Shown piece by piece: positions 21,443 through 28,823 of a DNA stretch of 35,992 bases (position 1 is its first letter; every line of letters begins with the position of its first letter). The notes below the pieces were generated by a model. The model made no database searches, was not told the DNA's origin, and worked only from the letters and a program-made list of their open reading frames with translations. The position numbers and the translations under genes were made by a program. Origin of the DNA: Bacteroidales bacterium (GTDB lineage: Bacteria; Bacteroidota; Bacteroidia; Bacteroidales; UBA7960); the NCBI GenBank assembly GCA_007125585.1, contig SLCY01000080.1, forward strand, positions 1 to 35,992, in the 5' to 3' direction.

Positions 21443-21535
21443 AACAAAAAGGATAATGAACGGGTGTTCACCCAACAAAACGCCACGATCAGCACGACAA
21501 GCATCCCATGGCTTGTGTTACAACATTGCATGCAA

Positions 21536-23008
21536 ATGAACCGTGAAAATAAATCATTGGCCGACCTGATCTACAAAACAGGGATCACTGAGACCTCCGG
21601 GACAACCCACAGGGAGATCGCAACAGTGGTGTCGGACTCGCGGAAAGCAACAGAGGGATCACTGTTTGTCGCCATCAGGGGGCTCACAAACGATGGCCAC
21701 CTGCATATCGACCAGGCCATATCGCTGGGCGCAAAAGCCATCCTTTGTGAAACGTTGCCCGGATCACTGAACGATGAGGTCACCTATGTCAGGGTGCGCG
21801 ACACCAGGAAGGCACTCGGAACCGTCGCTGCCAACTTTTTTGACCACCCGTCACGCAGGCTCAAACTGATAGGTGTTACCGGCACCAACGGAAAAACAAC
21901 AGTGGTGCGGATGCTGCACGAAGTGTTCAGCAAGCTGGGTAACCGCTGCGGAATGATTTCCACCATCAGCAATGTCGTTGCCGGCAGGGAAGTGCCGACA
22001 GAATATACCACACCCGACCCCCTGACCATCAATCAGCTATTAGCAGACATGGCCGCAGCCAAATGCACGCATGCCTTCATTGAGGTCAGCTCCCACGCCC
22101 TTGCACAGGCACGCGTTGAAGCACTGCATTTCGCTGGCGCAGTCTTTACCAACCTGACACACGACCATCTCGATTACCATAAAAACTTCAGAGAATATCT
22201 GAAAAGCAAACAACTGCTTTTCAATAAACTCGAAACGAAAAGCTTTGCCCTGACAAACCTGGACGACAAGAACGGAATGATCGTGACCCAAAACACCAAA
22301 GGGAAGATCTGGACATACAGCCTGAGAGCCATGGCCGACTTTAAGGGCAAGCTGCTCGAAAAAAGCCTCAACGGCCTGCACCTGCAAATCGACAAAAGAG
22401 ATGTGTGGTGCAAGCTTACCGGGACATTCAATGCCTACAACATCATGGCAGTGTATGGCGTGGGACGTATCCTGGACAAACCGGCCGACAGCCTGCTCAG
22501 CGCAATCAGTAACTGCGCCCCGCCAAAAGGGCGGTTCGATTTCTTCATCGGGGATAACAAAGTGATCGGTATTGTAGACTATGCCCATACCCCCGATGCA
22601 TTAAAAAATGTGCTGGAAACCATCAAGGAGGTCAGAACAGGCAATGAGAAACTCATCACGGTGATCGGGTGCGGGGGCAACAGAGACAGATCCAAAAGGG
22701 GCCCGATGGCAGCCGTGGCAGCCAGCCACAGCGACAAGGTCATCTTTACCAGCGACAACCCGCGCCACGAAGACCCTGAAACCATCATCGAAGAAATGAT
22801 GCAGGGCCTGCAACTTAACCCGGGCCTGAAACCCAAAGCCATCAAAATAACAAACAGGCAAGAAGCCATCAATGTCGCCTGCGTAATGGCCTCCGAAGGA
22901 GATATCATATTGGTGGCAGGCAAGGGACATGAAAAATACCAGGAGATCAAAGGGGTGAAATATCCGTTCGACGACAAGGCGATCCTGCAGAAACTGTTAA
23001 ACAGGTAA
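21536..23008 (+). CDS. murE: UDP-MurNAc-tripeptide synthetase, meso-DAP type
   Basis: MurE adds the third stem-peptide residue. The 490-residue form starts at the ATG 21536 (MNRENKSLADLIYKTG); upstream in-frame codons to 21464 give an atypical N-terminus. The ATP loop is GTNGKTT (116-122). HDHLDYH and the KSKQLLF segment with the likely carbamylated lysine follow. The specificity motif is DNPR (407-410), which selects meso-diaminopimelate over lysine. The domain 3 segment VAGKGHEKYQ is intact. All three Mur ligase domains are present here, in contrast to murD. It follows ftsI after about 93 bases. Confidence 0.96.
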   Translation: MNRENKSLADLIYKTGITETSGTTHREIATVVSDSRKATEGSLFVAIRGLTNDGHLHIDQAISLGAKAILCETLPGSLNDEVTYVRVRDTRKALGTVAANFFDHPSRRLKLIGVTGTNGKTTVVRMLHEVFSKLGNRCGMISTISNVVAGREVPTEYTTPDPLTINQLLADMAAAKCTHAFIEVSSHALAQARVEALHFAGAVFTNLTHDHLDYHKNFREYLKSKQLLFNKLETKSFALTNLDDKNGMIVTQNTKGKIWTYSLRAMADFKGKLLEKSLNGLHLQIDKRDVWCKLTGTFNAYNIMAVYGVGRILDKPADSLLSAISNCAPPKGRFDFFIGDNKVIGIVDYAHTPDALKNVLETIKEVRTGNEKLITVIGCGGNRDRSKRGPMAAVAASHSDKVIFTSDNPRHEDPETIIEEMMQGLQLNPGLKPKAIKITNRQEAINVACVMASEGDIILVAGKGHEKYQEIKGVKYPFDDKAILQKLLNR

Positions 23009-23098: not shown

Positions 23099-24355
23099 AT
23101 GCTGTACAACCTGTTCGAGTTTCTGGATCAGAATTATGATATCCCCGGCACGGGAGTGTTTCAATACATCTCCTTCCGGGCAGGCATGGCGGTCATTTTT
23201 TCCCTGTTCATCACCATGATATCAGGCAAGCGGATCATCAACTTTCTGCAAAGCAAACAGGTGGGAGAGCCTGTCAGGGACCTCGGCCTGGAAGGGCAGA
23301 TCAGCAAACACGGCACACCCACCATGGGAGGGCTTATCATGATCGCAGCCATCGTCGTCCCAACACTCCTTTTTGCCAGGCTCGACAACATATACATTAT
23401 ACTCATGCTGGTGTCGACAATATGGCTGGGAAGCATTGGCTTCATAGATGACTATATCAAGGTGTTCCGCAAGGACAAACATGGCCTGCACGGGAAGTTC
23501 AAGATCATGGGCCAGATCACCCTGGGTGTCGTCATCGGCGCCACCCTGTATTTCCACGAAGGGGTCGTGATCAGGGAAAAGATCGATACACCACTTGAGT
23601 ATGTCACCGCCGAAGAGATCCTTGAGGTGGATGGCATTGTCCAGGCAGATTCCCCCTTCCCGATGGCGTCAGAAAAATCAACAAAAACCACCATCCCGTT
23701 CTTCAAGGACAATGAGTTCGACTATTCGGTCTTGCTGGCGTTCCTGGGCCCGGGATATGAAAGGTGGGCGTTCCTGATCTTCATCCCGATCGTCATCCTG
23801 ATCATTGCAGCGGTATCAAACGGGGCCAACATCACAGACGGCCTCGACGGACTTGCAACGGGGACATCGGCCATCATTGGCGTAACCCTGGGCGTGCTGG
23901 CTTATGTGTCGGGCAACGTGCTCTTTGCCGACTACCTAAACATCATGTATATACCCCACACCGGCGAGCTGGTGATCTTTATCGCAGCGTTTGTCGGAGC
24001 ATGCATCGGGTTTCTCTGGTATAACTCCTACCCGGCACAGGTGTTTATGGGCGACACCGGAAGCCTCTCGCTGGGCGGCATCATCGCCGTGTTCGCCATC
24101 ATGATCAGGAAAGAGTTGCTCATACCCATACTGTGCGGGATATTCTTTATGGAAAGCCTGTCGGTGATCATACAGGTCACCTGGTTCAAAATAACAAAAA
24201 AACGTTTCGGCAAAGGACGGCGAATCTTCCTGATGGCACCCCTGCATCACCACTATCAGATGAAAGGGTATCACGAAGCAAAGATCGTACAACGGTTCTT
24301 TATCGTCGGCATCATCCTGGCCGTTTTTTCAGTGATCACCTTGAAGCTGAGATGA
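23099..24355 (+). CDS. mraY: Phospho-N-acetylmuramoyl-pentapeptide transferase
   Basis: MraY makes lipid I from UDP-MurNAc-pentapeptide and undecaprenyl phosphate at the inner membrane. The 418-residue protein has about ten membrane helices, the cytoplasmic [14 protein letters not shown] loop, [12 protein letters not shown] with the catalytic aspartates, and the late [11 protein letters not shown] segment. The length, with an insertion around 150-215, is typical of Bacteroidota MraY. It appears complete to the C-terminal SVITLKLR. Its stop overlaps an ATG at 24352 that begins a 17-codon frame with no recognisable product. Confidence 0.97.
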
Positions 24356-24449
24356 TGATACAAAGTAAAACACCAACAAATACGAACGGGTCACCCCGTG
24401 CTTAAAAAACGTTTATTGACGCAGACAAAACACCAAACACCATAATAGT

Positions 24450-24998
24450 ATGGATATGATGGAAAAGACCCTGGCAAAGAACCAGAACATCTACAGCGGC
24501 ATGGCTGAACCCATAGCCTCCCGGCTGATCCACGTGCGCAAAGAAAGCATCAAGGAGAGCCTGGGCAAGTTTCCCAACCTGGCCCACCGCCTGGAAGAAG
24601 TGGCCACCATCCGGGGCATTCAGTTCATTAACGACAGCAAGGCCACCAACGTGAACGCCACATGGTATGCCCTGGAGTCAATGCACAGGCCGGTGATATG
24701 GATCGCAGGCGGACAGGACAACGGCAACGATTATTCCATCCTTGCCAGCCTGGCCCGCAAGAAGGTCAAAGCACTGGTCTGCCTGGGCGCCAACAACAGC
24801 AACCTGCTGAATGGCTTCCGGAAACATGTCGCCTCCATCTATACAGTCAGTAATATCAACGAGGCAGTGAATATCGCCTATTTTGCCGGGACACCCGGCG
24901 ATGTGGTGCTGCTGTCACCTGCCTGCGCAAGCTTCGACTTGTTCAAAGATTATGTTGACCGGGGCAACCGGTTTAAAAAAGCAGTTTATGAGTTGTAA
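24450..24998 (+). CDS. murD: MurD C-terminal domain only (D-glutamate ligase, truncated or split)
   Basis: MurD adds D-glutamate to UDP-MurNAc-L-Ala and is normally about 440-450 residues in three domains. This 182-residue product is domain 3 alone. It shows IYSGMAEPIASR, the INDSKATN motif (60-67), AGGQDNGNDY (86-95) and SPACASFDLFKDYVDRGNRF (156-175), all typical and well kept. The first two domains, with substrate-binding Rossmann fold and ATP P-loop, are absent. The frame cannot extend upstream: an in-frame TGA lies at 24417-24419, and mraY ends at 24355, leaving only 94 bases. The first residues align with the natural domain 2-3 junction, so the break is at a domain border. As it stands it cannot catalyse the reaction. 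Options are a split enzyme, a decaying gene replaced elsewhere, or an assembly deletion. Confidence 0.9.
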   Translation: MDMMEKTLAKNQNIYSGMAEPIASRLIHVRKESIKESLGKFPNLAHRLEEVATIRGIQFINDSKATNVNATWYALESMHRPVIWIAGGQDNGNDYSILASLARKKVKALVCLGANNSNLLNGFRKHVASIYTVSNINEAVNIAYFAGTPGDVVLLSPACASFDLFKDYVDRGNRFKKAVYEL

Positions 24999-25004
24999 GA
25001 CAAC

Positions 25005-25079
25005 ATGCTGGTGCCCCCGTACCGGACAGCCAAAGTGTCGGCCACCGGGAAAAAAGCGATCAAAGCAGTGAAGAAATAA
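25005..25079 (+). other. Possible 24-codon ORF between murD and ftsW
   Basis: An ATG-started frame of 24 codons with a basic C-terminus (GKKAIKAVKK) fills the 87 bases between the murD fragment and ftsW. It has no relative I recognise, and a frame of this size can occur by chance. It is recorded because it sits in the unusual murD locus. Confidence 0.15.
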
Positions 25080-25085
25080 TCGACC

Positions 25086-26276
25086 ATGCAACCAATGCTG
25101 AAAAAACTAAAGGGCGACCGAACCATCTGGCTGGTGGTGATCTTTCTTTATATTGTCTCCATACTGGCAGTGTACAGTTCGACAGGCACACTGGCCTACC
25201 GTTTCAGGGCTGGCAATACCGAATACTACCTTGTCAAACACATGATCATCACCGCCTTTGGCCTGGCATTGATGTATGTAGCGCACAATATAAGGTACAC
25301 CTATTATTCGCGCATCTCGCAACTGGCATTGTTCATAGCCGTCCCCCTCCTGATATTCACACTCATCAGGGGAACAACCATTCATGAAGCACAACGCTGG
25401 ATCACCCTGCCCATCATTAACCTCAGCTTTCAAAGCTCCGATTTTGCGAAGCTGGCGCTGATCATGTACCTGGCGAGGGTGCTGACACGGAAACAAGAAA
25501 TGATCAAGGATCTGCATCAGTCCTTTTTACCAATGGTCCTGCCTGTGCTGCTGATATGTGCCCTTATCCTGCCGGCAAACTTCTCAACGGCAGCCATGTT
25601 GTTCATTACCTGCATGGTGCTTCTGTTCATTGGCAGGGCAAGGGTCCGCCATATCATGGCACTGACCGGGACAGGCATGGCGGGCGTAGCCATCTTTATC
25701 GCCATATTGTTGGCAATGCCCGATAGCGGGAGGGTCCACACCTGGCAAAACAGGGTCACCACATTCATCAGCACCGAAGACAGGGACACCTACCAGGCCG
25801 ACCAGGCAAAGATTGCCATCGCCACCGGGGGGCTCGCCGGGAAACTGCCGGGGAACTCCACCCAGCGCAACTTCCTGCCACAAGCCTATTCCGACTTCAT
25901 CTATGCCATTATCATAGAAGAGTACGGCCTCGCAGGCGGCTTCGTGGTGCTGCTGCTCTACCTGATATTGCTCTACCGCGGGATAAGGATCGCCCACAAG
26001 AGCCCCGGCACATTCGGGGCGCTGCTGGCAGCAGGACTGAGCTTCAGCCTGGTGTTCCAGGCCCTGATCAACATGGCCGTGGCAGTGAACCTGTTGCCTG
26101 TTACCGGACAACCCCTGCCGCTCGTGAGCATGGGAGGGACCTCCCTGTGGTTCACCAGCCTGGCCATCGGCATCATATTGAGCGTGAGCCGCGCCGTTGA
26201 ACAGGAAGAAACGACGAACCAGTGGCAAGCAACAACCCAAAACGGCAACACCGATCACAATAAAGCAAACAGCTGA
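25086..26276 (+). CDS. ftsW: Septal peptidoglycan glycosyltransferase FtsW
   Basis: FtsW polymerises lipid II at the septum together with FtsI. The 396-residue SEDS protein has about ten membrane helices. Family marks are AQRWITLPIINLSFQSSDFAKLALIMYLA in the middle (in the usual position of the R-W-I and Q-P-S-E-x-x-K block), FIYAIIIEEYGLAGG, and LLPVTGQPLPLVSMGGTS near the end. The ATG at 25086 gives a cytoplasmic start MQPMLKKLKGDR. The hydrophilic C-tail overlaps nothing; murG begins two bases after the stop. Confidence 0.95.
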   Translation: MQPMLKKLKGDRTIWLVVIFLYIVSILAVYSSTGTLAYRFRAGNTEYYLVKHMIITAFGLALMYVAHNIRYTYYSRISQLALFIAVPLLIFTLIRGTTIHEAQRWITLPIINLSFQSSDFAKLALIMYLARVLTRKQEMIKDLHQSFLPMVLPVLLICALILPANFSTAAMLFITCMVLLFIGRARVRHIMALTGTGMAGVAIFIAILLAMPDSGRVHTWQNRVTTFISTEDRDTYQADQAKIAIATGGLAGKLPGNSTQRNFLPQAYSDFIYAIIIEEYGLAGGFVVLLLYLILLYRGIRIAHKSPGTFGALLAAGLSFSLVFQALINMAVAVNLLPVTGQPLPLVSMGGTSLWFTSLAIGIILSVSRAVEQEETTNQWQATTQNGNTDHNKANS

Positions 26277-27458: not shown

Positions 27459-28823
27459 ATGAAACAGATCGACCACATAACGCACATCTACTTCCTCGGG
27501 ATCGGGGGTATCGGCATGAGTGCCCTTGCGCGGTATTTCCATGCCCGCGGGGTCAGCGTAAGTGGTTACGACAAGACACCATCGAAGCTGACACAGGCTT
27601 TGCAGGCGGAAGGCATCAGTGTGAGCCACTCGGATGACCCCGGGGCACTGCCGGTGATGCCCGGACTCGTGATACGCACCCCGGCCGTACCAGTCACCAC
27701 AAGGCTCTGTCGTCATTTTGCCGCACACAGTATCCCGATCAGGAAGCGGGCCGAAGTGCTGGGGATGCTTTCGAAAAGCACCCCCACCATCGCGGTGGCA
27801 GGGACCCACGGGAAAACAACAGTCTGCGCCATGCTCACACACATCCTGAAAACGGCAAAGGTCCCATGCATGGCATTCCTGGGAGGGATAAGCACCAATT
27901 ACAACACCAACTACATCGGCGACCCCGATCCCCGGTGGCTGGTGGCAGAAGCTGACGAATACGACCGTTCGTTCCTGCACCTTTCACCCCGTTTGGCACT
28001 CATCAGTGCCATCGACGCAGACCACCTTGACGTGTACAAAAGCAGAAAGGCCCTGGCAGAATCCTTTGCCCTGTTTGCCAAACGCCTGCTCCCGGGCGGG
28101 ACACTGGTGGCCAGGACAAATACTGCAGCCAGGATAGGCTTTTCAGGTGATCAATATACCTATCATCCCGACGGGCCTGCCGATTATTTCCTGCACGCCG
28201 TCAGTGTCTGCCGGGGACGCTACCATGCCAACATCAGGGGCATGCTCCATATTGACGACCTGGCTCCCGGGCATCCCGGCCGGCACAACCTGGAAAACGC
28301 ACTGGCGGCAGCCGCCATGGCACACCAGGCCGGCATCCGCCCGGAAAAGATCAAAAGTGCCCTGAACAGCTTCCTGGGCGTCAGGCGCAGGTTCGAGATA
28401 TGCCTGCAAACAGAGGATGCCGTCTATGTCGACGACTACGCACATCACCCCGAAGAGATCAGGGCATGTATCGCCTCGGCCAAAGAGATGTGGCCCGGCA
28501 AAAAGGTCACCGGGATCTTCCAGCCACACCTATTCTCAAGGACCAAAGACCTGGCAGGACAGTTCGCCGAAAGCCTCTCGCAACTCGATGAACTTATTCT
28601 TCTCGACATCTATCCCGCAAGGGAAGAACCGATCGAAGGCGTTGACGCAACGATGATACTGGACATGATAAAGAATACACAGGCCATGACCTGTCGCCGC
28701 GAAGAGCTGCTCGATGTTTTGCAGGCCAAAGAAACAGAAGTCCTCCTCAGCATGGGGGCAGGAGACATCGACAGGATGGCTGAACCCATAACACAACTGC
28801 TAAAGGACAAAGCACTGAAATGA
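27459..28823 (+). CDS. murC: UDP-N-acetylmuramate--L-alanine ligase
   Basis: MurC adds L-alanine to UDP-MurNAc, the step before MurD. The 454-residue protein has the N-terminal GIGGIGMSALA (14-24), the ATP loop GTHGKTT (115-121), EADEYDRSF, and domain 3 motifs DDYAHHPEEIRA, FQPHLFSRTKDL and YPAREEP. All three domains are present. No D-Ala-D-Ala ligase fusion is seen. The stop overlaps the ftsQ start by four bases (ATGA), a coupling arrangement. Confidence 0.97.
   Translation: MKQIDHITHIYFLGIGGIGMSALARYFHARGVSVSGYDKTPSKLTQALQAEGISVSHSDDPGALPVMPGLVIRTPAVPVTTRLCRHFAAHSIPIRKRAEVLGMLSKSTPTIAVAGTHGKTTVCAMLTHILKTAKVPCMAFLGGISTNYNTNYIGDPDPRWLVAEADEYDRSFLHLSPRLALISAIDADHLDVYKSRKALAESFALFAKRLLPGGTLVARTNTAARIGFSGDQYTYHPDGPADYFLHAVSVCRGRYHANIRGMLHIDDLAPGHPGRHNLENALAAAAMAHQAGIRPEKIKSALNSFLGVRRRFEICLQTEDAVYVDDYAHHPEEIRACIASAKEMWPGKKVTGIFQPHLFSRTKDLAGQFAESLSQLDELILLDIYPAREEPIEGVDATMILDMIKNTQAMTCRREELLDVLQAKETEVLLSMGAGDIDRMAEPITQLLKDKALK

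Follow-up and report, generated by a model that had tools for sequence, protein, structure and literature searches.

Repeated reduction of murD to an apparently selected, non-ligase C-terminal tail in Bacteroidales lineages with MurD2- and MurL-type genes

The window, the whole 35,992-nucleotide stretch of Bacteroidales DNA that was analyzed, carries a dcw cluster in the order murE, mraY, a short murD-like gene, ftsW, murG, murC, an ftsQ-like gene, ftsA, and ftsZ, and all of the features located below lie on its forward (+) strand. murE, mraY, ftsW, and murC were named with NCBIfam models, and the identities of murG, the ftsQ-like gene, ftsA, and ftsZ are presumed from their sequences. As the original prediction had held, murE (positions 21464 to 23008), mraY (23099 to 24355; TIGR00445, 325.6 bits against a cut-off of 192), and murC (27459 to 28823) are complete, all scoring over the curated cut-offs. 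The ftsW-type gene located 3′ of the short gene (25086 to 26276) had TIGR02614 as its best family, at 282 bits, which is below the 337.5 cut-off of that model.

The slot between mraY and ftsW holds a closed frame of 182 codons (24450 to 24998) that begins with ATG (24450 to 24452). Its product matched the murD model TIGR01087 only at positions 265 to 439 of 441 (174.4 bits, below the 211.95 cut-off) and Mur_ligase_C (PF02875) over positions 1 to 127 (53.3 bits; cut-off, 28.4), confirming that the slot is occupied by a C-terminal piece of MurD. When aligned to Escherichia coli MurD (1e0d), the protein corresponds to residues 256 to 437, a complete domain 3 preceded by the closing stretch of domain 2. 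Its description as a stand-alone domain 3 was thus correct in that domain 3 is complete, but with the domain 2-3 border that we assumed for this split, ~43 residues of domain 2 (E. coli 256 to 298) are included as well. The in-frame TGA (24417 to 24419) upstream of the ATG and the 94-base spacer back to the mraY stop (24356 to 24449) are as first noted, and no convincing relic of domains 1 and 2 was found in this spacer. A structure model built from the window protein together with 40 relatives had block-mean pLDDT values of 83 to 97 from residue 51 on and of 38 to 52 for the first 40 residues, and its best Foldseek matches were MurD crystal structures.

Two blocks that had been singled out as intact are indeed present, namely, NDSKATN (residues 61 to 67; 24630 to 24650), whose D62 corresponds to E. 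coli D317, and SPACASFDLF (residues 156 to 165; 24915 to 24944). Nevertheless, not every active-site motif is preserved, since asparagine replaces the D-Glu-site lysine K348 (24720 to 24722, in GGQDNGNDY). At the other MurD D-Glu/ATP residues, K319, T321, and S415 are kept, while N271 is a serine. N69 (codon 24654 to 24656) and W72 (codon 24663 to 24665), equivalent to E. coli residues 324 and 327, are among the residues kept across relatives and fall in a candidate contact patch (24654 to 24665). Compared with what defines a MurD ligase (EC 6.3.2.9), the window gene has the expected mraY-murD-ftsW position, but its product has neither the three-domain architecture, with UDP-binding and P-loop ATPase domains, nor the full D-Glu/ATP residue set (N271, K319, T321, K348, and S415).

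A comparison of the same locus in close relatives had been proposed as a check, and it revealed that the genus-mates carry the short gene rather than a full-length one. All 21 genomes of the genus show the short form, in the same slot wherever the flank is visible, which rules out a chance occurrence; a contig end restricts the view in G013, G024, and G014, the contigs of the first two starting just upstream. Frames of 183 to 207 codons were obtained in 20 of the 21 genomes, except for a 245-codon frame in G012 that runs back over the mraY end, and G012 was also the one exception among the 20 genomes read to the stop, 19 of which have an ATG 182 or 183 codons from it. This ATG occupies the same column in the genus-mates as in the window gene. 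In the 21st genome, G014, the short gene begins 51 bases past the mraY stop, and 32 residues of it are encoded before the contig runs out. Identity to the window's gene ranged from 54 to 66% across the genus.

Searching 47 genomes of the family with the short protein gave matches in 46 (G006 had none). G041, from another genus of the family, also has a short gene, whereas full-length murD genes of 445 to 448 codons lie at the same place in five other genera (g2, g3, g4, g5, and g8). Given these lengths, the missing segment is nearer 790 bases than the ~870 first estimated. The murD genes of G042, G032, and G044 are apparently cut by contig ends. A full-length-type murD in genus g5 (G033:C248, L054) contains an in-frame TAG just above its last 285 codons, which could be a sequencing error or a first truncation step. 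In the spacers of at least 30 bases among the family's 19 short-gene loci, no convincing relic of domains 1 and 2 was detected except in G041, where ~14 domain 1-2-like residues precede the Met.

The original prediction had also proposed searching the genome for a second full-length MurD, and a complete ligase was found, although of the MurD2 type. Seven Mur_ligase_M proteins are encoded: MurE, MurC, MurF, a MurF-Alr fusion, an Mpl/MurC-like protein, FolC, and a complete MurD-type ligase. The genome has two MurF-type ligases, plain MurF and the MurF-alanine racemase fusion, on contigs C111 and C116. The MurD-type ligase is encoded on contig C69 by a gene that overlaps a MurL-type gene. It is full length, domain 3 included, and in the alignment Glu replaces E. 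coli D182 and Arg replaces K348, a residue near D-Glu in MurD. The same two substitutions are reported to determine the L-Glu specificity of MurD2 from Xanthomonas oryzae (PMC8788868), and the C69 protein is a MurD2-type enzyme predicted from them to use L-Glu. The adjacent MurL-type gene matched NF041275 with an E value of 9.5e-65 and 218.8 bits; in these genomes, MurL scores were ~200 to 294 bits (less for partial copies) against a cut-off of 700 in a model tuned to Xanthomonadales.

MurL-type genes were found in 42 of the 47 family genomes, and MurI (glutamate racemase) scored over its cut-off in none of the 47, the window's own genome included. Within the genus, neither MurL nor MurD2 was found in G008 (82% complete) and G024 (64%), and MurL was not found in G018 (80%). 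Because MurD2 determinants and MurL are present and MurI is absent, gene content predicts that MurD2 and MurL very probably generate D-Glu on the nucleotide in this lineage.

To place the short gene more broadly, we surveyed the order, using 294 genomes that were 80% complete or better. MurI exceeded its cut-off in 182 of them and MurL was present in 94, none of which had a MurI match stronger than an E value of 4e-21. The MurD2/MurL route is thereby extended to many Bacteroidota. A close match to MurD domains 1 and 2 was missing in 48 genomes, comprising 43 of the 94 with MurL versus 5 of the 200 without it (P = 7e-20, Fisher's exact test, which ignores phylogeny). Four of the five MurL-negative cases (G323, G330, G205, and G305) were genomes that were contaminated, lacked the region, or had it cut by a contig end; among the 43 MurL-positive cases, G063 and G167 were uninformative, having no mraY match in the assembly, and in G145, left out of the short set, the contig breaks inside the gene. 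With these seven genomes left out, a second Fisher test compared 40 of 91 with 1 of 196. The fifth MurL-negative case, G059 (C4, L149), has a highly diverged short tail between mraY and ftsW and neither MurL nor MurI.

The short gene was found in 39 of the 40 informative MurL-positive genomes without domains 1 and 2. The exception, G118 (C183, L264), has no detectable tail piece; its mraY is followed by a gene that we take to be ApbE-like, the dcw cluster is broken, and the genome is a real candidate for loss of the tail. Outside the family, the short gene sits after mraY and before ftsW at all 36 loci (35 MurL-positive genomes plus G059), and all 36 frames are closed, of similar length, and without internal stops. 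The reverse state, a kept front with a weak or absent tail, was seen among the 94 MurL-positive genomes only in G194, where the contig ends. Most short-gene genomes have a MurD2-type match.

Several observations were made alongside this survey. One of the 35 genomes, G096 (C108, L308), has a short gene and a MurL gene with one in-frame TAA, and no MurD2 was found within ~3 kb 3′ of MurL or in a genome search. MurL and MurD2 share one open frame of 885 to 949 codons, an apparent epimerase-ligase fusion, in G120, G216, and G296 (family f75) and G145 (f100) (loci L158 and L161). The longest murD open frame listed, 659 codons in G115 (C42), is a possible fusion or reflects a distant upstream stop. 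Among the best 80 loci on relatives' contigs, no named species had the short gene, and one candidate (L244), a short tail frame with the front part adjacent, was rejected as a frameshift.

The front of MurD appears to have been lost many times. Short and full-length genes both occur in 11 families (f1, f4, f6, f12, f24, f31, f46, f69, f88, f110, and f113), which, for monophyletic families that never regained the front, would imply a minimum of 11 independent losses. A midpoint-rooted mraY plus ftsW tree of 95 of 107 genomes (the locus contained too little mraY in the short-gene genome G051 and in 11 genomes with full-length murD from the window's family) contained 19 all-short clades, or 17 when nodes under 0.7 were collapsed, suggesting 17 to 19 separate losses of domains 1 and 2. 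Since only three of seven short genes tested were closest to the full-length gene of their own family, the number of losses is not exact and some transfer is possible.

The retained part is under purifying selection, albeit somewhat relaxed. Of the 14 pairs of stand-alone genes for which dN/dS could be computed, 13 gave 0.05 to 0.17 and one gave 0.21 (0.05 to 0.14 among genus-mates), whereas the same part of full-length MurD gave 0.017 to 0.049 in five computable pairs, ~2 to 3 times lower; these ratios are rough, as 9 of 28 pairs were saturated (5 of 19 stand-alone and 4 of 9 full-length) and many others had a dS of >1.

Constraint is distributed differently over the two forms. In 64 full-length genes (25 from genomes without MurL and 39 from genomes with it), N268, R302, D317, K319, T321, K348, and S415 are invariant and N271 is nearly so. 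In 57 stand-alone proteins, K348 and N271 are mostly lost (K348 is retained in 3 of 21 and 8 of 20 in two subsets) and K319 is often Arg, and the 16 most divergent proteins have mostly lost T321 and S415 too. By contrast, D317 and an Arg or Lys at position 302 are present in all 57 proteins and W327 is present in 56. When each of the 19 all-short clades was represented by a single protein, N324, I342, K362, V363, and F429 occurred in all 19 and W341 occurred in 18. This pattern indicates that the short protein is apparently abandoning ligand handling but preserving some other property; the patch formed by D317, N324, and W327, deduced from conservation, may be a contact surface.

How the short gene should be read depends on what these patterns permit. 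The window's genome is a 120-contig assembly, and loss of the segment during assembly had been one of the explanations first offered. However, because the same short gene recurs across the genus and in 35 MurL-positive genomes of many other families, including on contigs of >1 Mb (G309 and G281), an assembly or binning artefact is refuted, and we give it a negligible chance. Another explanation held that a second full murD exists and that this copy is decaying. Its first half is borne out by the complete MurD2-type ligase beside the MurL-type gene on another contig, in a genome without MurI. Its second half, that the short gene is a pseudogene remnant dating from when MurD2 and MurL took over, would agree with MurL lineages seemingly not needing MurD for D-Glu, with the weaker constraint on the short gene than on full-length MurD, and with the seeming loss of the tail in G118. 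We nonetheless judge decay improbable: neutral evolution and broken frames are not what was found, dN/dS is 0.05 to 0.21, no frame outside the family contains an internal stop, and the same part is kept in all but one informative MurL-positive genome without domains 1 and 2, the reverse occurring only at a contig end. The earlier argument that conserved motifs and an open frame speak against long decay is accordingly upheld.

That NDSKATN and SPACASFD are for the most part retained in the genus, together with the MurD2-type match in most short-gene genomes, could instead point to a split ligase, in which the short piece supplies domain 3 in trans to domains 1 and 2 of, for example, MurD2. A search for a MurD-type protein with a P-loop but no domain 3, put forward as a check on this idea, found none with PF08245 or with a query consisting of domains 1 and 2 of a relative's MurD; the latter detected only MurD2-type, MurC, and similar ligases in the genome and its genus-mates, and no stand-alone domains 1 and 2. 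The MurD2 of the window's own genome has its own domain 3, the MurD2 frames without this domain in G007, G009, G100, and G177 end at contig ends (contig ends likewise truncate the short MurD2 frames in G007, G009, G020, and G023), and N271 and K348 have been released, along with T321 and S415 in divergent lineages. A split enzyme therefore seems quite improbable, slightly more so than decay. The close tie between the short state and MurL, and the retention of D317 and of Arg or Lys at position 302 in every stand-alone protein, might alternatively reflect a role in regulating MurD2/MurL, as a subunit or as a ligand sensor that binds, for instance, glutamate or UDP-MurNAc peptides. This reading is doubtful, though a little less so than decay, given that the glutamate-contact residues are not kept, that the piece occurs in G059 although MurL and MurI are both absent there, and that the 36 loci outside the family lie between mraY and ftsW and not with murL.

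We consider it reasonably probable that the short gene encodes a stand-alone, non-ligase protein with a selected role derived from the C-terminal part of MurD, probably in contact with the Mur/division machinery. The sequences show a lineage that has MurD2- and MurL-type genes but lacks MurI, many separate losses of domains 1 and 2 of the old MurD, and retention of the C-terminal product in the same slot under purifying selection as its ligand residues drifted. What remained would serve structural or regulatory contact through the surface around D317-N324-W327, most likely with the products of neighboring genes (MraY, FtsW, and MurG) or with other Mur enzymes. By analogy, contact with the membrane-side wall machinery encoded alongside is our best guess for this role.

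The short product may also predate the deletions, with an internal start in full-length murD already producing it, such that deletion of the front would leave it intact. The start Met of the short gene falls on an internal column of full-length murD, and 116 of the 127 full-length Bacteroidota genes already have a Met there. In the family, 20 of 21 short genes have an ATG 182 to 183 codons from the stop, and outside it, 29 of 36 have one at 180 to 185 codons and six at 176 to 178 codons, with none in range in G059. Bacteroidota initiate without Shine-Dalgarno sequences, and low structure and upstream adenines (including at -3, -12, and -13) favor initiation in Flavobacterium johnsoniae (PMC6847099).

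When the 127 full-length genes were compared with synonymous shuffles, codons +1 to +8 from this Met gave the eight strongest low-structure biases among 425 positions. A enrichment around the Met peaked from -6 to +11, with upstream enrichment at wobble positions -16, -13, -7, and -4, none of which was seen at 958 other internal Met codons. The signature persisted when only genes <60% identical to one another were retained (29 pairs; A, P = 0.0025; structure, P = 0.0008). In controls (60 of 72 murE genes and 60 of 108 mraY genes), the strongest signals in murE, and the strongest low-structure signal in mraY, were at the gene's own 5′ end. The start-like signature at the murD internal Met is not fully specific, since mraY also has internal peaks that are approximately as strong as its 5′ signal (column ~60 for structure and columns 315 to 317 for A), albeit weaker than those of murD. 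The peak at column ~60 (LEGQMQKQGTP) is itself an internal low-structure synonymous signal in Bacteroidota mraY. In the 24 MurL-negative genes alone, the low-structure peak at +4 to +8 was near the top, while the Met-centered window ranked only 69th of 425. These results suggest that full-length murD may already make the short product, although the comparable mraY peaks and the MurL-negative ranking weaken this reading. A broader proposal, which we advance tentatively and rate at somewhat below even, is that murD is a two-product gene across Bacteroidota, encoding the ligase and also a C-terminal protein that is initiated, independently of a Shine-Dalgarno sequence, at the Met corresponding to E. 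coli residue 256 and that has been selected for a non-catalytic function in division or wall synthesis; MurD2/MurL lineages would then have repeatedly deleted the ligase part and kept the second product.

MurD, an essential ligase of the textbooks and a drug target, is treated as a single polypeptide with a single job. Taken together, our comparisons indicate that its reduction to a non-ligase tail in MurD2/MurL lineages is apparently repeated and selected, rather than an accident or a split ligase. Repeated natural deletion of the catalytic part with the tail kept would amount to a natural experiment separating catalysis from a second role, and it opens to direct testing the long-standing question of whether Mur ligases have a structural part in the wall-synthesis complex as well. 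It also offers an annotation rule for short "murD" genes that pipelines may call partial.

Relative to known systems, the short protein resembles MurD (TIGR01087) in that its 182 residues are homologous to the last 182 of the ligase, it occupies the same mraY-ftsW dcw slot, and its predicted fold is that of the end of MurD. It differs in having no UDP-MurNAc domain and no P-loop domain and in having lost K348, and it cannot act as the ligase alone. Internal-start C-terminal isoforms are known for bacterial enzymes, and the situation predicted for full-length murD is likewise one gene with two in-frame products; in the literature searched (open-license PMC), we found no internal-start murD case and no stand-alone, split, or internally started MurD. 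Like the MurD2/MurL pathway of X. oryzae (PMC8788868), the genome described here has a complete MurD2-type ligase with the Glu and Arg determinants, in this case beside a MurL-type gene and without MurI. In contrast, the taxa listed in that paper are Proteobacteria and Actinobacteria, with "bacteroid" absent from its main text, whereas the genomes studied here are Bacteroidota; the accessible part of the paper also mentions no short MurD product. Finally, while the accessible text of PMC6420597 mentions no stand-alone domain, it cites binding of MurD to MurG and MreB in Thermotoga maritima, and such Mur complexes provide a precedent for non-catalytic MurD contacts of the kind proposed here.
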